A stretch of DNA of 46,010 bases from Erythrobacter sp. (GTDB taxonomy: Bacteria; Pseudomonadota; Alphaproteobacteria; Sphingomonadales; Sphingomonadaceae), in NCBI GenBank assembly GCA_024642335.1, contig JAHEBH010000002.1:70647-116656 (forward strand), in the 5' to 3' direction. The position numbers and the translations under genes were made by a program. The notes under the pieces were generated by a model, which searched no databases, was not told the origin of the DNA, and saw nothing but the letters and a program-made list of their open reading frames with translations. Below, one piece after another: positions 4,520 to 43,320 of this stretch (positions are counted from its first letter, which is position 1; the number at the start of each line of letters is the position of its first letter).

Positions 4520-4976
4520 CCAAGACAACACCGGGGACTGGACAAGCCCTGACGAGGTACAGTTCCGCTTCCGCGACGACGAGGCAATCTCTGTCCCCGC
4601 AGTGACGGTCGATTCCTTCAGGGACCAGACAAACGCTTCTGCCGTGCGCATCGAACCTGGCGATGATGCGCGCGACCTGTTGCCCTACCTCGACCGCCTC
4701 TCGCTGGTCGAAGTGAACTTCCCGGTCTTCGGCGATGGTCGCGGCTATTCCGCTGCCCGCATCCTGCGCGAGGCGGGCTTCACGGGCGAGTTGCGCGCGG
4801 TGGGCGAGGTTCTGGTGGACCAGATCGCCTATATGCGGCGCTGCGGCTTCGATGGCTTCGCTCCCGACAAGAAGCTGAACGAGGCTGACGTTGAAGCGGC
4901 GCTGTCTCGCTGGCCGCAAGTCTACCAGCCGACAGTCGACGGGCGAGCGCCGATCTGGAAGTTGCGGCATGGCTGA
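4512..4976 (+). CDS. DUF934 family protein of the sulfate reduction operon
   Basis: The 154-residue protein begins at ATG 4512 inside the last codons of cysI (8-bp overlap). It shows the DUF934 pattern: RIEPGDDARDLLPYLDRLSLVEVNFPVFGDGRG, then ARILREAGFTGELRAVGEVL and the MRRCGFDGF stretch. It has no signal peptide, membrane helix or cofactor motif. DUF934 proteins are a conserved companion of CysI and CysH in proteobacteria. Their biochemical role is not settled, and help to the reductase is inference from linkage. Its end overlaps the cysH start by eight bases, so the two are tightly coupled. Confidence 0.88.
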   Translation: MADQDNTGDWTSPDEVQFRFRDDEAISVPAVTVDSFRDQTNASAVRIEPGDDARDLLPYLDRLSLVEVNFPVFGDGRGYSAARILREAGFTGELRAVGEVLVDQIAYMRRCGFDGFAPDKKLNEADVEAALSRWPQVYQPTVDGRAPIWKLRHG

Positions 4977-5766
4977 AGCCGACCCCCTTCCCCGCCAGCG
5001 CGATGTGATCGATTCCTCACCTGCATTTACGCAGGCCGATGCCGATCGCCTCAACGCGCGCTTTACAGGCGTGGATGCAGCAACAATGCTGGCCGAGCTG
5101 TTTGCCGAGGGCTCACTCGGGCGCGTCGCAGTTGTCTCCAGCTTTGGCACCGAGAGTGCCGTGCTATTGCATCTGGTGGCGCAGGCTGATTCCACCACGC
5201 CTGTGGTCTTCGTCGATACGCTGAAGATGTTCCCGGAGACGCTGGAATATCGCGAGACCCTGATTAGCCGACTGGGCCTGCAGAATTCCTCGGTCGTCCA
5301 GCCCGATCCCGAACTTCTCAAGGCCAAGGACGACAACGGATTGCGCTGGAGCTGGGACCCCGATGGATGCTGCGAGATCCGCAAGGTGCAGCCACTCGCC
5401 CGCGCCAAGCAGGGGCTCGACGCCTGGATTTCGGGCCGCAAGGCCTTCCAGTCCGTCACGCGCGAGAACCTGCCGCGTTTCGAGATCGAGGAAGGTCGCC
5501 TCAAGATCAACCCGCTGGGCGATTGGGGCAAGGAAGATCTGGAGGCCCATTTCGAGGAGCACGACCTGCCGCGCCACCCGCTGGAGGCGCAGGGCTATCT
5601 CTCGGTTGGCTGCGCGCCCTGCACCAGCACTGTCAAGCCGGGCGAAGACCCGCGCGCGGGCCGCTGGCGTGGTTGGGACAAGACCGAATGCGGCATCCAT
5701 TCTCCCAACGACCCGCAAAGCGGTGATGATGGCGATCTACCGCCCGGCTACGAACCGGTTTTCTGA
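4969..5766 (+). CDS. cysH: Phosphoadenylyl-sulfate / adenylyl-sulfate reductase
   Basis: The 265-residue enzyme reduces activated sulfate (APS or PAPS) to sulfite. The PP-loop of the adenine nucleotide hydrolase fold is SSFGTES (residues 57-63). Cys134-Cys135 (GCCEIRK) and Cys215-x2-Cys218 (CAPC) are the four cysteines of the [4Fe-4S]-type reductases, which usually prefer APS. Cys241 in ECGIH is the catalytic cysteine. The [4Fe-4S] signature favours APS reductase; substrate choice needs an assay. The start ATG at 4969 lies inside the DUF934 gene. It is the last gene of the operon and is followed by a strong terminator at 5905-5937. Confidence 0.93.
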   Translation: MAEADPLPRQRDVIDSSPAFTQADADRLNARFTGVDAATMLAELFAEGSLGRVAVVSSFGTESAVLLHLVAQADSTTPVVFVDTLKMFPETLEYRETLISRLGLQNSSVVQPDPELLKAKDDNGLRWSWDPDGCCEIRKVQPLARAKQGLDAWISGRKAFQSVTRENLPRFEIEEGRLKINPLGDWGKEDLEAHFEEHDLPRHPLEAQGYLSVGCAPCTSTVKPGEDPRAGRWRGWDKTECGIHSPNDPQSGDDGDLPPGYEPVF

Positions 5767-8731: not shown

Positions 8732-9861
8732 AGCAGCACCAACTGGTCGCGATGGATCACCGCCGAACGCGGAGCATAGCCGAGCAGGCCCTCCAGCTCT
8801 TCACTGCGGCGTCCCTTGATGCGGGTAATCTCCGCAGAGCCATACTCGACCAGCCCCTGCGCCAGCGGCTTGCCCTGTGCATCGCGCACACCCACTGCCG
8901 CACCACGGGCGAACTCGCCCTCGACATCGATAATTCCGGTCGCCAGCAGGCTGCCTCCCTTGGCCAGCGCCTTGGCACAGCCGGCATCGACCACGATAAC
9001 GCCCGCCATGCGTTGGCGGCCACCGAGCCAGGACTTGAGCGCACCATCGTTGCGGCGCGGGAGGAACAGTGTTCCTGTCTCCCGTTCCATCGCCCGCGCA
9101 AGCGGCCGCTCATGCTTGCCGTTGAGGATGGCGAGTGCAATACCCGCCCTTTCCGCAATTTCCGCCGCCTGCAGCTTGGAGGTCATGCCGCCCGAGCCCA
9201 TACCCGAGGATGAGCTGCCGCTGGCCATCTCGTGGATTTCAGCCGTCACGCCCTCTACCCGGCTCAGCAGGCTGGCCCCTTCCTCTGAAGGATCGCGATC
9301 GTAGAGCCCGTCGACATCGGACAGCAGCGCGATTGCATCGGCCCGCGCGGCCTGCGCGCAACGGGCGGCGAGCCGGTCATTGTCGCCAAAGCGGATTTCC
9401 TCTGTTGCGACCGAGTCATTTTCATTGATCACGGGAACCGCGCCTGCCTTGAGCAACTTGCCGATCGTGGCGGAAGCATTGAGATAGCGGCGGCGATCAT
9501 CGAGATCCTCCAGCGTCACCAGCAATTGCGCGGCGGTGATGCCCAGCGTGCCAAGCAGTTCGGACCACAGTCCGCCCAGCGCGATCTGCCCTACGGCTGC
9601 AGCGGCCTGCGCTTCGGACAGGCTGCCGCGTCCGCCCTTGGCCAGCCCCAGCTTTGCCGCGCCCAGTGCAATCGCGCCGGAGCTGACCACCACGACCTGC
9701 TGCCCACGCGCGCGCGCCTCGGCGATTTCCTCGCACAGCCCAGCCAGCCATTCGCGGCGTGGCTTGCCATCCTTGCCCACCAACAAGGACGAGCCCACCT
9801 TCACCACAAGGCGCGGCGTCTTGGCAGGATCGATCAGGTCTGTGAGGCGCTCTATTGTCAT
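8728..9861 (-). CDS. proB: Glutamate 5-kinase with C-terminal PUA domain
   Basis: A 377-residue enzyme that phosphorylates glutamate to glutamyl-5-phosphate, the first step of proline synthesis. The amino-acid-kinase fold is shown by VVKVGSSLLVGKDG near residue 20, VVVVSSGAIALG near 57 and INENDSVATEE near 145. GTGGMTSKLQAAEIA-like GSGGMTSKLQAAEIA is near 220. The C-terminal 100 residues (about 275-365) form the PUA domain normal for long ProB. It lies 50 bp downstream of obgE, the order usual in alphaproteobacteria. proC lies elsewhere in this window at 13256-14053; proA is not present. Confidence 0.95.
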   Translation of the reverse strand: MTIERLTDLIDPAKTPRLVVKVGSSLLVGKDGKPRREWLAGLCEEIAEARARGQQVVVVSSGAIALGAAKLGLAKGGRGSLSEAQAAAAVGQIALGGLWSELLGTLGITAAQLLVTLEDLDDRRRYLNASATIGKLLKAGAVPVINENDSVATEEIRFGDNDRLAARCAQAARADAIALLSDVDGLYDRDPSEEGASLLSRVEGVTAEIHEMASGSSSSGMGSGGMTSKLQAAEIAERAGIALAILNGKHERPLARAMERETGTLFLPRRNDGALKSWLGGRQRMAGVIVVDAGCAKALAKGGSLLATGIIDVEGEFARGAAVGVRDAQGKPLAQGLVEYGSAEITRIKGRRSEELEGLLGYAPRSAVIHRDQLVLL

Positions 9862-9911
9862 GGAAAACCGCTTAGCCGAAGGCGTGCGTCAGGCAAACGG
9901 TTGTGTGCAAG

Positions 9912-10979
9912 TCAGATCGGAGACCATTCGGAGGATTCATCGTCTTCATTGCCATCCTCGGCGGGAACGTGGCCGGGGTTCTCGGTTGCGGTCTTCTGCG
10001 GCAGGTAGCCAAGTACGGCATCGAGCAGTTCCTCAATACCCTTGCCGGTCGCACCGGAAATGGCGAATACGTCGTCTGCACCCGCCTCCTTCAGCTCCTC
10101 GGCAAAGCCTGCCACCAGTTCCGCGTCGGCCAGGTCGACCTTGTTGAGCGCGATCAGGCGCGGCTTGTCTTCCAGCCCGGCGCCATAGGCCTCGAGTTCC
10201 TTTTCCACGATGCGCATCGCGGAAGCAGGGTCCTCCCCCGATATGTCAATCAAATGGATCAGCACGCGGCAGCGCTCGATATGGCCCAGGAAACGGTCAC
10301 CGATCCCGGCCCCCTCTGCCGCGCCTTCGATCAGGCCCGGTATGTCCGCCACCACGAATTCACGGCCCTTGTGGTAGACGACGCCCAGCTTGGGGACCAG
10401 CGTGGTGAAGGCGTAGGCCCCGACCTTTGCACGGGCGTTGGAAACGGCGTTGATGAAAGTGCTCTTGCCGGCATTGGGCAGGCCGAGCAGGCCCACATCG
10501 GCGAGCAGTTTCAGCCGCAGCCAGACCCACATTTCCTGCGCCGGTATGCCCTGCTGGTGCTGGCGCGGCGCGCGGTTGGTGGACGTCTTGTAGCTGGCAT
10601 TGCCGCGACCACCAATCCCGCCTTCGAGCAGGACTACACGCTGCCCCTCCTCGGTAAAGTCGGCGAGCACCTCTTCCTTGTCCTCGGACAGGATTTGCGT
10701 GCCTACGGGAACCTCGATCACCAGGTCTTCGGCGCCCTTGCCAGTGCGGTCCTTGCCCATGCCGTGGCCGCCGCGCTTGGCCTTGAAGTGCTGCGTGTAA
10801 CGGAAGTCGATCAGCGTATTGAGTCCGGGAACCGCGACAAAGACGATATCGCCGCCCTTGCCACCATCGCCACCGTCGGGGCCGCCATATTCGACATACT
10901 TCTCGCGCCGGAAGCTCACCGCACCCGGCCCGCCCGCGCCCGACCTTATGTAAATTTTCGCCTGATCAAGAAAATGCAT
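9912..10979 (-). CDS. obgE: Obg-family GTPase (CgtA)
   Basis: A 355-residue GTPase for late 50S subunit assembly and stress/growth control. The N-terminal glycine-rich Obg fold covers residues 1-158 ([33 protein letters not shown]). The G domain follows with G1 GLPNAGKST at about 166-174, G3 [10 protein letters not shown]4 NKVD and G5 ISGATGKG. The protein ends in a short acidic tail rather than a folded OCT domain, as in many Gram-negative Obg proteins. It is the first gene of the obgE-proB-SDR unit. Confidence 0.96.
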
Positions 10980-35194: not shown

Positions 35195-36043
35195 TTATGG
35201 AGAGCCATGTTGGTGGTCGCCCATCGCCTGCAATGAGGAATCTGGAGGATTTCCGTGGGTTTGAGAGGTATGGTCCTGGCTTGCGGCCGGATTTCCCGCA
35301 TTTTCCCCGAAATCGGTGAAGATATGCGCAGTCAGCACGTGAAGAGCTTCTGTCGCTTGCGGATGGGGGCCGTCGATATCCAATATTGCGGCATCGGCGA
35401 TAATCAGCACCTCGCCAACACCCAGGACGCAATGGGCTATGATGCCGCTTGCAGAAACCGTGCATTCGAACCGGCCATCAGCGGGAACGAGGTTCCCGGG
35501 CAGATTGACGGGCATTGGCACGGCGAAGTGATCGACCAGGACAAGGCCGGGCTGTTGGCTGTCATCGACTTGCAGTTCCAGCCCCCAATGCGACAAAATC
35601 GGTGAAAGCAGCGCAACATCCTGCGGCCGCCGCCGGTCGCCTACCGAAAAACGTGAGTGACCCGTCATCGCAGGGTCAGCAAAAAGAAGCAGCTTCCCGC
35701 CGGCTCGCACCCAATTGTCCAGTGCCATATTCTCTTCCGCCGCCAGGCCGCGTGGCTGCGCCATCAGCAGGAGAGACTGCGCTTCGAGCCGCTCCGCGCT
35801 AAGGAAGTCGATCGGCACTAGCTCGAAGCTGTGCTCCAGCTCGGCACGCGCCCAATGCGCGTGCGCTCCGCCATTGATGTGGTCGCCCATTGCATCACCC
35901 TCCCCCCAATAGATCGGGATGGTACCCATCAAGGCGAGCGACGCACGCGCCGGAACATCCTCCGCGTATGTCGCGCCGGATTGCAGGGCTGCAATTGCCG
36001 CCAGGCAGGCGAGGCTAGTTCGCACCTTCGGGCGTTTGGACAT
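35195..36043 (-). CDS. Exported GldG/DUF4350-like protein
   Basis: A 282-residue protein with an N-terminal Sec signal peptide (SLACLAAIAALQSGATYA, cleavage near 27). The body resembles the GldG/DUF4350 fold, a class-I glutamine-amidotransferase-like domain without catalytic residues. Recognisable parts are HSFELVPIDFLSAERLEAQSLLL, ENMALDNWVRAGGKLLLFADP and a late GEVLIIADAAILD. The C-terminal 35 residues are His/Ser/Asn-rich and unstructured. ATG 36043 lies inside the upstream gene (29-bp overlap). Its role is unknown. It is the last gene before the mraZ promoter. Confidence 0.7.
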   Translation of the reverse strand: MSKRPKVRTSLACLAAIAALQSGATYAEDVPARASLALMGTIPIYWGEGDAMGDHINGGAHAHWARAELEHSFELVPIDFLSAERLEAQSLLLMAQPRGLAAEENMALDNWVRAGGKLLLFADPAMTGHSRFSVGDRRRPQDVALLSPILSHWGLELQVDDSQQPGLVLVDHFAVPMPVNLPGNLVPADGRFECTVSASGIIAHCVLGVGEVLIIADAAILDIDGPHPQATEALHVLTAHIFTDFGENAGNPAASQDHTSQTHGNPPDSSLQAMGDHQHGSP

Positions 36044-36389
36044 TGCTGTTTCCGGACTGGGCAGACGGTTGCGGCTGTGCGGGAGCAGCAGCCCCATCAA
36101 CCGGCAGGTTGGGAACCACGCCCGCCTCTACCAATGGATCGCGCGGCGGCGGGGGTGGCAGGTCCTCGTTAGTGACCGGCGGCATATCCTCTGCCACGCC
36201 TGTCCGGTTCTCTTCTGCACTCGATATGATGATATCCGCCAGGGCCACCAGCACTACCATGGTGGCAAGCCCGAATATGCCAATCTGAAGCCTTTGCACG
36301 CGCTGGCGGCGCGTCCCCAGCAGCGGAAAGCTTTCCGCTTCGCTGTCGCTTCGCGCCACGTGCAGGAGTTCTCTGGGATCAAGAGCCAT
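36015..36389 (-). CDS. Small single-pass membrane protein, unknown function
   Basis: A 124-residue protein with an Arg-rich cytoplasmic N-terminus (1-34), one membrane helix at about 36-57 (IGIFGLATMVVLVALADIII) and a periplasmic tail. The tail is proline-rich (DLPPPPPRDPLVEAG) and ends in a Pro/Gln/Ser/Asn-rich stretch. I do not recognise a family. It overlaps the GldG-like gene by 29 bp, so the two are probably one transcript and may act together at the membrane. Confidence 0.7.
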   Translation of the reverse strand: MALDPRELLHVARSDSEAESFPLLGTRRQRVQRLQIGIFGLATMVVLVALADIIISSAEENRTGVAEDMPPVTNEDLPPPPPRDPLVEAGVVPNLPVDGAAAPAQPQPSAQSGNSNVQTPEGAN

Positions 36390-37790: not shown

Positions 37791-37863
37791 GGCGATAAAT
37801 GTCCCTATTCCAATTCTGCGGGGCTGCTAGGCAATCGCGAGGAAATTGGCAAGCGGAGCGGAC

Positions 37864-38481
37864 ATGGGGCTGAGCGCAGAACAGATCAAATCCGGTATCG
37901 ATGCGATCGCGGCGCAGGAGAAAGGCATCGCCCGCGCGCTGGAACTGGCGGGCTATCCCGAGCCGCGCATTCGCGAGCGCGGGTACAAGACCTTGCTGCG
38001 CACGATCGTGGGCCAGCAGGTTTCTGTAGCCGCTGCCAGCAGCGTGTGGCGGAAGCTAGAGGCGGAGCTGGGCGAGGATATCCACCCGCATGAATTGCTT
38101 GCGCGCGATTTCGACACTCTGCGCGCCTGCGGCCTGTCACGCCAGAAGCAGGGCTATGCCCGGTCCTTGTGTGAACTCGTGAGCGCCGGATCGCTCGACC
38201 TGCACAATCTGCCCGCGAGCGACCAGGAAGCCATCGCCGAACTCACCCGCATCAAGGGGATCGGGCGCTGGTCGGCGGAGATCTACCTGCTCTTCGCCGA
38301 AGGCCGCCCGGACATCTGGCCCGCAGGCGATCTCGCCGTAATGGCCGGGATCGGCAAGATCCTCGGCTTGGAGGAGCGCCCCGACGAGAAGGCCACCCGC
38401 GCCATGGCCGAACCCTGGCGCCCGCATCGCGGCGCGCTGGCGATCTTCACCTGGCATTGTTACGACAATCCGGCGCTGTAG
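37864..38481 (+). CDS. DNA-3-methyladenine glycosylase II (AlkA type)
   Basis: A 205-residue helix-hairpin-helix base-excision glycosylase removing alkylated purines. LTRIKGIGRWSAEIYLLFAEG (about 127-147) is the HhH and following helix. Asp156 in WPAGDLAVMAG is the catalytic aspartate. The protein has only the catalytic domain, like short bacterial AlkA/MAG forms. ATG 37864 has GCGGAG upstream; an earlier TTG at 37846 is less likely. A diverged copy of its last 17 codons lies at 41239-41289 beyond the neighbouring gene. Confidence 0.9.
   Translation: MGLSAEQIKSGIDAIAAQEKGIARALELAGYPEPRIRERGYKTLLRTIVGQQVSVAAASSVWRKLEAELGEDIHPHELLARDFDTLRACGLSRQKQGYARSLCELVSAGSLDLHNLPASDQEAIAELTRIKGIGRWSAEIYLLFAEGRPDIWPAGDLAVMAGIGKILGLEERPDEKATRAMAEPWRPHRGALAIFTWHCYDNPAL
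38431..38481. repeat. 51-bp direct repeat, copy A (3' end of the glycosylase gene)
   Basis: The last 51 bases of the glycosylase gene (GALAIFTWHCYDNPAL and stop) match 41239-41289 with about 7 differences, all transitions. The two copies are in the same orientation and bracket the G8-domain gene. Confidence 0.85.
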
Positions 38482-38491
38482 GGCCGCAGAT

Positions 38492-38519
38492 AACAAAAAC
38501 CCCCGACTTTCGCCGGGGG
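38492..38519 (-). terminator. Rho-independent terminator of the G8-domain gene
   Basis: On the minus strand CCCCCGGC-GAAA-GTCGGGGG (38519-38500) forms an 8-bp stem with a GAAA tetraloop. It is followed by TTTTTGTTA. It lies 26 bp behind the stop at 38545 and may also weakly stop alkA transcripts. Confidence 0.88.
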
Positions 38520-38544
38520 CTTCGTTCAGTTCGCGAAACCGAAT

Positions 38545-41151
38545 TTATCTGCTGACCGCTATACTGGCCTGAATAACCAATGGACGGATTGGCATGACCG
38601 GAGCATCGGCCACCAGTTTGACCCAGAGGGTGCCCCCGTCCCTGAAATAGGATGTCTCGCGCGCCCCGCGCAATGCGTTCATGCTGGCCTGCTGCGCTCC
38701 GGAGGCTGCCGTGGTAAAACCCGGCAGTTCGAAAATAACCCACGAGCCCTCGTCCATTTCAGCCATGCTGAGAGAGACTTCCGATCTTTCGGTTTTCACC
38801 TGGATCTCGGTGCCGGCACGCACAGTGCTCTGGTTGCCCGTTATGTGAAATTCCTTGCCGTTGCGAACCAGCGCGATGGGCTCCTGCGGAGCGGCCGGAG
38901 CCGCCGGAGCGAGCGGAGCGGCTGGAGCGGCCGGAGCGGATCCAGCGCCGAACGTGAGTCCGCGTCCGCCAAGTCCTGCTGGCCTTGGCGAGAGATACAG
39001 GCGTCCGACATCACCCGTGCACACAGAGGCGTTCCAGGTCGGATGAATCTCACAGCTGTCGTCGGTGACGACGCTGTCGAACTCGCCGTCATGGAGCATG
39101 ATGTGGGAATCGGCGATGCCGGTCACCGAACCGTCCAGGTCGTGAATCGACAGGGTCCGAAAAGCCACGCCGCCACGGTTGTCGTTATCGAACCTCAGAT
39201 CGTAGTTCGGGAAATAGACCGGCTTGGCATTGACGAATTCCGCACCCTCGATGGTGCTTGCAGTTGTGACGCCCGAGCTGGTGAACAGCAGCCAGGAAAG
39301 CGCGCCGGTCTTGCGCCGATCGTTGTCCTGATAATTCACGAATGTCGTGTTCACCACCTCATTGCGGTAATCATAGTATTCGTAGGCGCGGATCGGAAAG
39401 TCAGGCACCGCAATCTTTGGCAGGCTGCGGCCATAGGCCACTTCCTCGACCGTGGTGGGGTTGCCGATATTATCGGTTTCACCCACGACCAGCGAATCCT
39501 GCAAGCGCGAGGTAAAGGCCTGGCTGCCGAAGTCGCCCGATGAAATCGTCATGCCGATGGCGTTGTCAGCGAACTTCATGTTGCGGAATATCAAAAGCTC
39601 ACCGCGACCCCACAAACCGCCGTTGCGGTTCTTGTAGCTGGTCAGATCCGAAATGTGCGTTTCCACGAAGGGGCTGTTCGGGTCGGCAGGATTTTCCCGG
39701 GGCATGAACGCGTTTCCAGCCAGCCCGAAAGTGTTGTCCTCGTTGATGTTCCGGTCAAACATGAACCCGTCGAAGTTGGAATGCGCGGTGTTGCCTCTGA
39801 ATTCACCCAGCGGCATTCGGCGCGGCCAGGTGTTGAGGCTGGTCTCGGTACCCAGGTGGGCACCATTGGGGTGTTCCGGCAGAGACAGCCAGAAACCGTT
39901 CTGGTCGGAACCGGCCGCCACATTGTCGATGTAGTGGTTGTTCGGATTGGTGATCCAGTAGGATGCCACCGTATTGTCCGAAGGCAGCAATGTGCCTCCG
40001 CCGTGGAAGCTGTGTTCCCGCACGGTCATTCGATTTGCATAGGTGTAGTTGTTCTCTCCGTTGGCGGCGAGATTGGTGGGTACGCAATCGAGCGTCGGAT
40101 GACACTTGGTCTGGATCGCCAGGTTCTTGACGAAGCGGTTGCCCTGCTCGATCCCGTCCTCGAGGAAGAAGCAGTGGCCGACCGTGTTGTAGGTGACGTT
40201 GTTTTCCACCTGCAGATTGTTGGTGCCGTGGACCGTCACGCAGCGGTTGAAGGTGTCATAGATGGCATTGTTGCGGACATACATGCCCTGCCCTTCACCC
40301 AGCACGTGGAAGTGGATCGGATAGCGCGCCAGCGTCAAATGCTGGCCCATGCGCGAGAGCTCTACGCTTTCGATATACATTTCGGAGCCGCTCATCGCCA
40401 TGATGTGCCCGCCGAAATGGTTCGTCGCCGCATCTTCGGAGGCCTGGACGCGGATATTGCGCGAAAGGTTCGCAACCTCGCCGCGCTCGTCCACGCCGAA
40501 GGTGATCTCGCCGAAATGCATGTATTGCAGCGGTGCATCGATGGTGACGGTGTTGCCGTTGACGGCGGTGATCGTGCGGCGCTCTGCCTGGCGCGGATTG
40601 AAGTCGGTCGAGGCAAGCACGATCTCGTCGCCAGCGCGCCAGCCGCTCGCATCCAGCACTGTGAAGGAGGTGCTGCCTGCCTCAGCCGTGGCCGAAAGCT
40701 TCGACCACGTATGCTCGCGATTGCCATGCATGGTGAGCGTACCGCGCATCAGCATGATGCCGCGATCGCCCATGGTGTTGATGTCCTCGCCCTTCACATT
40801 GTCGGTGAGAGTGATGGAGGCATTGTGCTGATAGGGATTGTCAGCTGTGCCGATGGTAAGCGAGCCGCCCGGGACATAGATCCACTCTGACTCAAGGCTA
40901 ATGTCGCGCTCATCGGAAAAGGTCAGGCTGCCCTGGATAGTCAGGCTGCGCAGGCCCGGTGCGTCAACGTCCAGCACCACGTCCATATCGCGGGTGATTT
41001 CCACCGCGTCACCTTCGCCCGGCACTTGTCCATTGGGCCAGGTGGACGCATCAGACCACAGCGACTGGGCATTTGCGGCAGACCCCGCACCCAGCATGGC
41101 GGTGGCTGGCAGCAACATGGAACTCAGGAACAAGCGAGATTGTAAGCGCAT
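38545..41151 (-). CDS. Secreted G8-domain protein resembling CEMIP/TMEM2 hyaluronan-degrading proteins
   Basis: An 868-residue exported protein with a Sec signal peptide (cleavage after ANA, about residue 28) and a strong GGGAGGGG SD before ATG 41151. A G8 domain occupies about 32-150 (WSDASTWPNGQVPGEGDAV, IYVPGGSLTIG). A right-handed parallel beta-helix follows (about 225-650). It contains stretches that look strikingly like animal CEMIP/TMEM2: YPIHFHVLGEGQG (277-289), FNRCVTVHGTNNLQVENNV (301-319), GHCFFLEDG and GGTLLPSD. An Ala-Pro linker near 740-760 leads to a small C-terminal beta domain. The inferred role is a hyaluronan or other glycan depolymerase. It forms its own transcription unit with its own terminator. 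Confidence 0.85.
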   Translation of the reverse strand: MRLQSRLFLSSMLLPATAMLGAGSAANAQSLWSDASTWPNGQVPGEGDAVEITRDMDVVLDVDAPGLRSLTIQGSLTFSDERDISLESEWIYVPGGSLTIGTADNPYQHNASITLTDNVKGEDINTMGDRGIMLMRGTLTMHGNREHTWSKLSATAEAGSTSFTVLDASGWRAGDEIVLASTDFNPRQAERRTITAVNGNTVTIDAPLQYMHFGEITFGVDERGEVANLSRNIRVQASEDAATNHFGGHIMAMSGSEMYIESVELSRMGQHLTLARYPIHFHVLGEGQGMYVRNNAIYDTFNRCVTVHGTNNLQVENNVTYNTVGHCFFLEDGIEQGNRFVKNLAIQTKCHPTLDCVPTNLAANGENNYTYANRMTVREHSFHGGGTLLPSDNTVASYWITNPNNHYIDNVAAGSDQNGFWLSLPEHPNGAHLGTETSLNTWPRRMPLGEFRGNTAHSNFDGFMFDRNINEDNTFGLAGNAFMPRENPADPNSPFVETHISDLTSYKNRNGGLWGRGELLIFRNMKFADNAIGMTISSGDFGSQAFTSRLQDSLVVGETDNIGNPTTVEEVAYGRSLPKIAVPDFPIRAYEYYDYRNEVVNTTFVNYQDNDRRKTGALSWLLFTSSGVTTASTIEGAEFVNAKPVYFPNYDLRFDNDNRGGVAFRTLSIHDLDGSVTGIADSHIMLHDGEFDSVVTDDSCEIHPTWNASVCTGDVGRLYLSPRPAGLGGRGLTFGAGSAPAAPAAPLAPAAPAAPQEPIALVRNGKEFHITGNQSTVRAGTEIQVKTERSEVSLSMAEMDEGSWVIFELPGFTTAASGAQQASMNALRGARETSYFRDGGTLWVKLVADAPVMPIRPLVIQASIAVSR

Positions 41152-41238
41152 GGTTTGATCCCCTCCCTGGGATGCTCGTTTATCCCTGACGATTTGCAGG
41201 AAATCCTCCAGCTTGCCAAGTTTGGAATAGACGCGAGC

Positions 41239-41289
41239 GGCGCGTTGGCGATCTTCACCCGGCATTGCCACGACGATCCGGCGTTATAG
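41239..41289 (+). pseudogene. Remnant of an AlkA-type glycosylase gene (last 17 codons)
   Basis: The plus-strand frame reads GALAIFTRHCHDDPAL and stop, matching the last residues of the intact glycosylase (GALAIFTWHCYDNPAL). Identity is about 86 percent at nucleotide level. The preceding in-frame codons (LQEILQLAKFGIDAS) do not match the glycosylase. It marks the outer border of the segment holding the G8-domain gene. Confidence 0.8.
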
Positions 41290-41355
41290 CGCGCTCCATT
41301 TGCATTTCTCGTGCTGCTCCCTACCTGACACCGGGACCTGAATGCGGGAGAAATC

Positions 41356-43320
41356 ATGACCAGTGACACCAATGCCGCCGATCGCGTCGCAGCGATCGAC
41401 CTGATTTCGCGCGACGACCTGTTCGGCAACCCGCTCCGTTCCGGCGGGCAGCTCAGCCCCGATGGCAGATGGATGGGCTGGATGGCCCCGCACGAAGACG
41501 TAATGAATGTCTGGCTCGCGCCCTTCGACGATCCCGACAATGCGCGGCTGATGACCCATGCGAAGGATCGCCCGATCCCGCAGTACTTCTTTTCTCCCGA
41601 CAGCAAGTCCATGCTCTATGTCCGCGACAAGGACGGGGATGAGAATTTCCTGCTCTACAAGGTGGATATTGAGAGCGGCGAGGATGTCTGCCTCACCCCG
41701 TTCGAGAAAACGCGCATCAGGGTTGTCGGCGGTTCGGAAACGATCCGCGACAAGATCCTCATCGGCCTCAACAATCGCAATGAACAGTTCCACGATGTCT
41801 ATCTGCTCGACCTGACAACGGGTGCGATGGAGCTGGTGCTCGAAAACGATGCCTGGGCTGGCTTCGTCTCCGATGACAGCCTGACGCTGCGCTGGGCGCA
41901 AAAGCAGAATGCCGCCGGCGGCACGGACCTCCACAAGTTTATCGATGGCGTGATTTCGCCCAAGCCTGACGAAGTCATCCCGATGGATGACAGCCTGACC
42001 TCTGGCACGGGCGGCTATACCACTGACGGCAAGACGCTCTATTGGCGGGACAGCCGCGGGCGCAATACCGGCGCGCTTTATGCGCAAGACACCACAACGG
42101 GCGAGCGGATCCTGCTGGCCGAGGATGATCGCGCCGATATCGGCGGGACGTTGAGCCACCCGAAGACGGGCGAGGTGCAGGCCTATGCCACCACCTATCT
42201 GCGCACCACATGGCATTGCTTCGACCACGGCGTCAAAGCCTCGCTCGACTGGCTGCGCGAACAGCTGGAGGGTGATTTCGGAGTTCAGTCGCGCACCGAT
42301 GACGACACGAAGTGGCTCGTCTGGAACGATCCACTGACAGCCCCGGTGCGCTGTTTCATCTATGACCGCGAAGCCGAAGAGCTGCGCCTCTTCTATGTCA
42401 CCAAGCCCGCTCTGGAAGGCGCGCCATTGCAGCCAATGCATCCGCGCGAAATCCCTGCCCGCGACGGTTTGACGCTGCCCTCTTATCTCACTCTTCCCGG
42501 TGGTTCCGATGAGGATGGCGACGGCGTGCCCAATGCCCCGCTGCCCATGGTGCTGCTGGTGCACGGGGGACCCTGGGCGCGCGACGGATACGGCTTCAAC
42601 CGCGCGCACCAGTGGCTCGCCAATCGCGGCTATGCGGTGCTCTCGGTCAACTATCGTGGTTCGACCGGTTTCGGCAAGAACTTCATCAATGCCGGCAACC
42701 TGCAATGGTCCAAGGCCATGCATGACGATCTGATCGACGCGGTGAACTGGGCCGTCGAACAGGGTGTGGCCGACAAGGACAAGGTCGCCATCATGGGCGG
42801 GTCATATGGCGGCTATGCCACGCTGGTGGGCCTGACCTACACTCCGCAAGTCTTCGCCTGCGGTATCGATATCGTCGGCCCGTCGAACCTCGAAACCCTG
42901 CTGGAAACCATCCCGCCCTATTGGGCACCGATGGTGAAGCAATTCCATGAACGGATGGGCAATCCGACCACGGCAGAAGGCAAGCAATTGCTTAAGGATT
43001 GCAGCCCCATCCACCGCTGCGACCAGATCGTGAAGCCGCTGCTGATCGGCCAGGGCGCCAATGATCCGCGCGTCAAGCAGGCGGAAAGCGACCAGATCGT
43101 CTCCGCGATGGAAGGCCACGACATCCCCGTCACCTATGTGATCTTCCCCGACGAGGGCCACGGCTTCCACCGTCCCGAAAACAACATCGCCTTCAACGCA
43201 ATCGTCGAGGGCTTCCTGGCCGGATGCCTCGGCGGCCGTGCAGAACCTGTGGGCGATGTGTTAGGCAAGTCTACCGCCGAAATCCGCACGGGCGTGGAGT
43301 TTGTGAAGGGCTTGGGATAA
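41356..43320 (+). CDS. S9 family (prolyl oligopeptidase-type) peptidase
   Basis: A 654-residue serine peptidase without a signal peptide. Residues 25-360 form a beta-propeller with repeated short blades (SPDGRWMGWMAP, SPDSKSMLYVRD, TTDGKTLYWRD). The alpha/beta hydrolase domain covers about 385-650. The triad is Ser483 (GGSYGGYA), Asp570 (GANDPRVKQ) and His602 (DEGHGFH). The nearest class is acylaminoacyl/dipeptidyl peptidase. An Asp-rich loop DEDGDGVPNAP (about 384-394) between the two domains is an insertion resembling a calcium-binding site. It begins 67 bp after the glycosylase remnant, with GGGAG 7 bases before ATG. Confidence 0.93.
   Translation: MTSDTNAADRVAAIDLISRDDLFGNPLRSGGQLSPDGRWMGWMAPHEDVMNVWLAPFDDPDNARLMTHAKDRPIPQYFFSPDSKSMLYVRDKDGDENFLLYKVDIESGEDVCLTPFEKTRIRVVGGSETIRDKILIGLNNRNEQFHDVYLLDLTTGAMELVLENDAWAGFVSDDSLTLRWAQKQNAAGGTDLHKFIDGVISPKPDEVIPMDDSLTSGTGGYTTDGKTLYWRDSRGRNTGALYAQDTTTGERILLAEDDRADIGGTLSHPKTGEVQAYATTYLRTTWHCFDHGVKASLDWLREQLEGDFGVQSRTDDDTKWLVWNDPLTAPVRCFIYDREAEELRLFYVTKPALEGAPLQPMHPREIPARDGLTLPSYLTLPGGSDEDGDGVPNAPLPMVLLVHGGPWARDGYGFNRAHQWLANRGYAVLSVNYRGSTGFGKNFINAGNLQWSKAMHDDLIDAVNWAVEQGVADKDKVAIMGGSYGGYATLVGLTYTPQVFACGIDIVGPSNLETLLETIPPYWAPMVKQFHERMGNPTTAEGKQLLKDCSPIHRCDQIVKPLLIGQGANDPRVKQAESDQIVSAMEGHDIPVTYVIFPDEGHGFHRPENNIAFNAIVEGFLAGCLGGRAEPVGDVLGKSTAEIRTGVEFVKGLG

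Follow-up and report, generated by a model that had tools for sequence, protein, structure and literature searches.

The closest described relatives of the protein considered here are the animal hyaluronan-depolymerising proteins CEMIP and TMEM2, whose status as enzymes and whose site of cutting are both disputed. The crystal study of TMEM2 was unable to assign an active site (PMC10206443), a literature search found no TMEM2 assignment later than that paper, and a 2026 review describes the catalytic mechanism of CEMIP as incompletely defined (PMC13113925). Point substitutions reported to lower or abolish activity, R187 in CEMIP and R265, D273, D286 and H248 with A303 in TMEM2, have all been assigned to the GG domain (PMC10206443, PMC10276149), placed at 220-387 in TMEM2 (PMC10276149); a section heading of the latter paper has the C-terminal tail needed as well. 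Of two reviews of microbial hyaluronidases, one names CEMIP, in the excerpts available, solely as a protein of mammals (PMC13113925) and the other solely within a reference (PMC11669647). A gene in a 46,010-nucleotide stretch of an Erythrobacter sp. contig (JAHEBH010000002.1, positions 70,647 to 116,656; 'the window', meaning the whole stretch analysed) encodes a bacterial relative without the GG domain but with a conserved polar cluster in the helix, and so separates the question of the domain from that of the helix. Its interest is that so minimal a relative makes the TMEM2/CEMIP active-site question testable. With a probability of roughly 0.6, the protein is secreted and depolymerises polysaccharide by means of a right-handed beta-helix, its make-up (G8, helix and C-terminal sandwich) being the TMEM2/CEMIP fold pared down to the core.

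A bacterial relative of TMEM2

The open reading frame (ORF) named in a preliminary description of this DNA is real, lies on the minus strand and encodes 868 amino acids, and the signal peptide proposed there is visible by eye (...SAANA then Q). The parts of the gene are as follows.

38545..41151, minus strand: gene for the G8/CEMIP beta-helix protein, 868 amino acids, ATG at 41151, stop at 38545 (ORF, Pfam, TMEM2 match)
41068..41151, minus strand: signal peptide, residues 1-28, MRLQSRLFLSSMLLPATAMLGAGSAANA then Q (structure model low-confidence at 1-27)
40693..41043, minus strand: G8 domain, residues 37-153, forming the opening coils of the beta-helix (PF10162, E 9.9e-30)
39769..40416, minus strand: CEMIP beta-helix core, residues 246-461 (PF24606, E 6.2e-78)
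40147..40323, minus strand: candidate active-site coils, residues 277-335 (ten polar residues, listed below, constant in all 95 rows and in human TMEM2)
38881..38979, minus strand: Ala/Pro-rich linker, residues 725-757 (from the sequence; 725-753 low-confidence in the structure model)
38548..38880, minus strand: C-terminal beta domain, residues 758-868 (strands in the structure model)

Homology to CEMIP/TMEM2, as first proposed, is borne out along the helix by Pfam, phmmer and a family profile. PF10162 (G8) scores 103.4 bits against a cut-off of 22.9, and outside G8 there is a significant match both to TMEM2 and to PF24606 (CEMIP_beta-hel; 261.8 bits, cut-off 27.3), while GH56, PL8 and PL16 are absent from the protein's Pfam matches (three families in all up to E 1). 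A phmmer search of PDB sequences found human TMEM2 (8c6i) at E 1e-88 in two stretches, the sole other match up to E 1 being an acylphosphatase at E 0.41, and a profile of 35 bacterial relatives matches TMEM2 at E 1.3e-141. The main stretch aligns 583 residues, 214 of them identical; within residues 209-345 the identity is 69 of 136. The predicted structure has a continuous helix fold as in TMEM2, G8 included; the whole-model structural alignment reaches residue 868 against TMEM2 1156, and the C-terminal beta domain may correspond to the 'domain X' region of TMEM2. The CEMIP-type phrases that had been called near-verbatim are all in the protein but are shared unevenly, GHCFFLEDG being identical in TMEM2, CVTVHG reading CITVHG there, HFHVLGEG being common in part (HFHLCGD) and GTLLPSD not occurring in TMEM2. 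Full equivalence with the animal proteins is not supported: TMEM2 chain positions 171-339 (about residues 253-421), which take in most of the GG domain, align to nothing in the bacterial protein, and no GG/ILEI-type Pfam family was found in any of the 35 bacterial members scanned.

Conservation was read from 95 rows, reading frames of at least 780 residues with the window protein included; this set leaves out repeats of the window genome's own copies (L001-L008 and L114) and shorter pieces, and holds at least one identical pair (L018 and L087). Unchanged in all 95 are H249 and Q270, the residues of three cluster coils (Y277, H280 and H282; R303, T306 and H308; H326, E331, D332 and E335), and N338, N343, T401, N405, N410, H457, S458, Y593 and D671, and human TMEM2 has the same letter at every one of these positions except T401. 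N402 is kept in 94 rows and D392 in 83; TMEM2 has T, A and H, respectively, at the positions of D392, T401 and N402. The cluster for which the preliminary description had looked to the His, Asp and Asn residues of the animal proteins is thus conserved, with Glu added. By strand position in the structure model, 277-282, 303-308 and 326-331 are the successive first strands of three coils, and by an inferred offset the cluster would lie in TMEM2 at about H550, H552, R580, H585, H603, E608, D609 and E612. Selection on the gene is purifying (dN/dS 0.142, 0.185 and 0.135 against the relatives L031, L030 and L028, respectively).

The case for a depolymerase and its alternatives

Two distant relatives lie in sugar loci. 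In Algibacter lectus three family members stand in tandem in a sugar-uptake locus whose 16 scanned neighbours include two SusCD pairs, four sulfatases, three GH78-type proteins, two GH43, one GH3, one esterase and one protein with a sorting tag alone. In Algibacter pacificus (17 neighbours scanned) one member is accompanied by GH106, two GH78-type proteins, five sulfatases, a hybrid two-component sensor, a SusCD pair, a further TonB-type receptor and, about 20 kb off, GH88. No Pfam polysaccharide-lyase family was found among these 33 neighbours, which are part of the genes present and include one of 313 amino acids with no Pfam match, and this leaves the G8/CEMIP proteins as depolymerase candidates there. 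The two neighbourhoods point to a sulfated, rhamnose-containing polysaccharide, for example an ulvan-type polymer, and away from hyaluronan, the substrate originally suggested. Sulfatases also occur near members in L087, L100 and L105; the Polaribacter and Saprospiraceae members viewed sit among other genes, so the sugar-locus context holds for the two Algibacter genomes only. For the window bacterium the likeliest guess at the substrate is a rhamnose- and/or uronic acid-containing polysaccharide rather than hyaluronan. As a separate observation, recurring neighbours by eye in L028, L044, L085, L096 and L113 are GMC-type oxidoreductases, aldehyde dehydrogenases and SnoaL-like proteins (with a tannase by Pfam in L113), a setting that resembles the breakdown of small molecules more than a sugar locus.

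Enzyme status, active-site location and substrate class are what we infer from homology, predicted fold, conservation, selection, the context of the two Algibacter relatives and a signal peptide seen by eye. A polysaccharide chain would run along the concave face of the helix, where three adjoining coils would present Tyr277/His280/His282, Arg303/Thr306/His308 and His326/Glu331/Asp332/Glu335, covered by two long loops (about 350-395 and 466-500); an acid/base pair out of the His/Glu cluster would then cleave the chain internally, with other proteins importing and finishing the products. Should the bacterial protein prove able to cleave a polymer of any kind, the enzyme would be the helix, and the eight to ten residues named could be mutated in this protein and in TMEM2 alike. 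More tentatively, and at slightly less than even odds, TMEM2 and CEMIP would trace back to a large family of secreted beta-helix depolymerases in bacteria, or have a common ancestor with it. The catalytic centre would lie in the helix at His280/His282/Arg303/His308/His326/Glu331/Asp332/Glu335 and GG would have been added in animals to hold hyaluronan, while the bacterial proteins would cut rhamnose/uronate polysaccharides and make up a new carbohydrate-active enzyme family.

Several points weigh against a catalytic role. The human TMEM2 ectodomain was inactive in one study (PMC10206443), and in another human TMEM2 was inactive and mouse TMEM2 active in cells (PMC10276149), the latter paper also citing work in which G8 is needed. 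That the cluster side chains face the cleft is our reading of strand positions and not a computed result, invariant residues can be structural, and the structural matches include the non-enzymes NosD, PfbA and phi29 gp12. The literature found reports no activity for a bacterial member, and the own-genome copies examined, including a tandem group of at least two on contig C23, lie among housekeeping or unrelated genes with no sugar-uptake locus. Much of this would suit a non-catalytic carbohydrate-binding or surface protein whose helix holds glycan for other enzymes: the inactive ectodomain whose active site was not assignable, the use of beta-helices in an adhesin (PfbA) and in NosD, and own copies without a surrounding sugar locus. 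Such a protein is nevertheless unlikely, given that ten polar residues invariant across bacteria and human exceed, in our judgement, the usual needs of binding, that purified human and mouse TMEM2 ectodomains were active in a further study (PMC10474455), and that the scanned Algibacter neighbours offer no polysaccharide-lyase family to do the cutting.

Within the depolymerase reading, a doubtful special case is a uronate lyase (or epimerase) with AlgE/AlgG-like beta-elimination, in which Tyr277 would be the acid, His282 the base and Arg276 a helper. The bacterial YPIHFH may be set beside the AlgE motif YGFDPH, but hhalign against AlgE4 alone gave a probability of 0.6%, that is, no profile-profile match. 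The fragment alignment starts at 270 against 79 in both AlgE4 (2pyg) and AlgE6, and at 269 against 47 in the AlgE4 complex 2pyh, and by eye the AlgE4 catalytic coil falls two to three coils after 277-282, nearer the coil at 326-331; the register is ambiguous because the ends of the whole-model and fragment alignments differ by about one coil. GH88, moreover, is present in just two of the five family-carrying Erythrobacteraceae genomes searched, the window's own included. Homology across the 583 aligned residues would favour a true bacterial hyaluronidase, sharing its substrate with CEMIP/TMEM2, yet this is the least probable of the alternatives: there is no GG domain, the Algibacter loci carry rhamnosidases, sulfatases and GH43, which are not what hyaluronan breakdown needs, and the seven other PF24606 copies in the window's genome are just 54-73% identical to the window protein, which suggests several glycans. 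Only marginally less improbable is a passenger of mobile DNA, a gene maintained because it spreads and not because it is used, with which the spread of 0 to 12 matches per genome inside the genus, the scattered tree positions of the own copies, the flanking duplications and the gene's own promoter-like element would agree; purifying selection, the invariant cluster and the lack of a transposase inside the unit in the window speak against it.

Copies, distribution and the single-gene unit

Far from being a single oddity, the gene is one of eight PF24606 matches in the window's genome, and the family reaches several phyla. It is present in 15 of 37 genomes of the genus (own included), with 1 to 12 matches each, some of them pieces at contig edges. 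Beyond the genus, none of 24 genomes from that order has it, and a phylum sample of 299 genomes yielded 3, all from the window's taxonomic family; of 14 control genomes one matched, Deinobacterium chartae. A scan of genome contigs found 108 relatives, and the best 80 of these, by record title, come from Erythrobacteraceae, other Sphingomonadales, caulobacterial and gammaproteobacterial metagenome-assembled genomes (MAGs), Acidobacteriota, Bacteroidota, Verrucomicrobiota and one Ktedonobacteraceae MAG. A quick tree built from 92 rows, its deep part unsure through long branches, has Gammaproteobacteria and Acidobacteriota interleaved and scatters the eight own copies over eight positions, each beside copies from other genomes. 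This fits repeated horizontal transfer better than duplication inside the genome. Three further cases may be recorded in their own right. A Saprospiraceae MAG (L148-L150, G065:C76) has 11 family matches, several in a tandem array of giant proteins with frames of ~2,000-2,800 residues; the family gene of Altererythrobacter sp. KTW20L (L096) lies between two transposase-like genes (4817-5512 and 9386-10063), IS6-like by eye, in a layout as in a composite transposon; and that of Erythrobacter cryptus (L037:5884-8718) is split into two adjoining reading frames, possibly a broken gene.

The surroundings of the gene in the window are these.

37846..38481, plus strand: convergent neighbour, alkA-like DNA glycosylase (ORF; homologues in 35 of 37 genomes searched; name by eye)
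38429..38484, plus strand: 3' end of the alkA-like glycosylase gene, right copy of the flanking repeat (56 bp, 85.7%)
38496..38523, minus strand: terminator-like hairpin 3' of the G8 gene (scan)
41193..41219, minus strand: family-specific promoter-like element TTGGCA-N15-TGCAAA (motif read from family copies)
41237..41292, plus strand: second copy of the alkA 3' end, left stranded beyond the G8 gene (56 bp, 85.7%)
41356..43320, plus strand: divergent neighbour, S9-type peptidase (ORF; name by eye)

An alkA match is present in 22 same-genus relatives. Nine of these were inspected base by base, and seven have the start of the S9 peptidase within ~200 bp after the alkA-like gene (by eye); in the window the G8 gene sits between the two. 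L031 has the same flanking arrangement (81 bp, 71.6%), and in L082, L103 and L105, more weakly in L102, the 3' end of the convergent right-hand neighbour is repeated upstream of the G8 gene. Such a repeat flanks 6 of 43 non-tandem family genes against 1 of 273 other genes (Fisher p 2.9e-5, or p 0.001 when counted as about four independent events); the other own copies open to test have no flanking repeat outside tandem arrays.

The promoter-like element was defined from six copies as TTGGCA-N15-TGCA[AC]A. Fetched loci totalling 1.94 Mb (both strands) contain it 10 times, every time near a family gene start, and four of the 10 were not used in the definition. Besides the one at 41193-41219, copies are in L029, L031, L062, L065, L075, L108, L109, L111 and L112. 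In the window's whole genome it occurs seven times, the reversed control not at all. Five of these sites precede known copies, one precedes the start of an additional family gene at the C10 contig edge, and the seventh (C42) is in apparently unrelated coding sequence; one tandem copy on C23 has no exact match. Together these counts indicate that most dispersed copies carry a common promoter-like element. Of the promoter-terminator unit first ascribed to the gene, the promoter-like element (41219-41193) and the hairpin are present; a generic sigma-70 scan found no promoter for the G8 gene and the hairpin is weak evidence, as the scan gave three such sites in the region with 2.2 expected from shuffles. 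The C10 gene start to which the element led (L153/L161, G000:C10, near the contig start) is cut by the contig edge, and C6, another contig, starts partway through a family gene at almost the same residue; these may be one gene or two near copies. Several copies also have, by eye, upstream boxes of the TTACAA type and, ahead of the start codon, an inverted repeat resembling GGGAC...GTCCC. Elsewhere in the window, 35195-36100 (minus strand) encodes a probably exported protein of ~300 residues, and L031 too has a similar gene, near cysK.

Comparison with known systems

To classical hyaluronidases (GH56, PL8, PL16) the only likeness is the substrate suggested by the preliminary description, with no Pfam match, and PL6 and other beta-helix lyases are alike in fold only, the PL6 site consisting of calcium-binding acids and a Lys/Arg pair. 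AlgE4, AlgE6, AlgE7 and AlgG share the right-handed beta-helix and the R-Y-x-x-[D/H]-x-H spacing, but AlgE4 has no detectable sequence relation and the coil register of the motif is ambiguous. Fibrocystin/PKHD1 has G8 followed by PbH1 repeats (PMC13424714) but is an animal membrane protein of very large size in which IPT and PA14 domains occur. Nearer are the Bacteroidota and Verrucomicrobiota proteins (L095, L097-L106), with both domains in those scanned and the cluster in the long rows, which are 30-39% identical (blastp) and longer, some having type IX secretion tags and, in the two Algibacter cases, sugar loci. With TMEM2/CEMIP (the comparison being with TMEM2, not with CEMIP itself) the bacterial protein has in common G8, the CEMIP beta-helix and the sandwich after it, the polar cluster and the fold; it differs in having neither the lectin-like GG domain nor a transmembrane anchor, and in belonging to a family that is bacterial and multi-copy.
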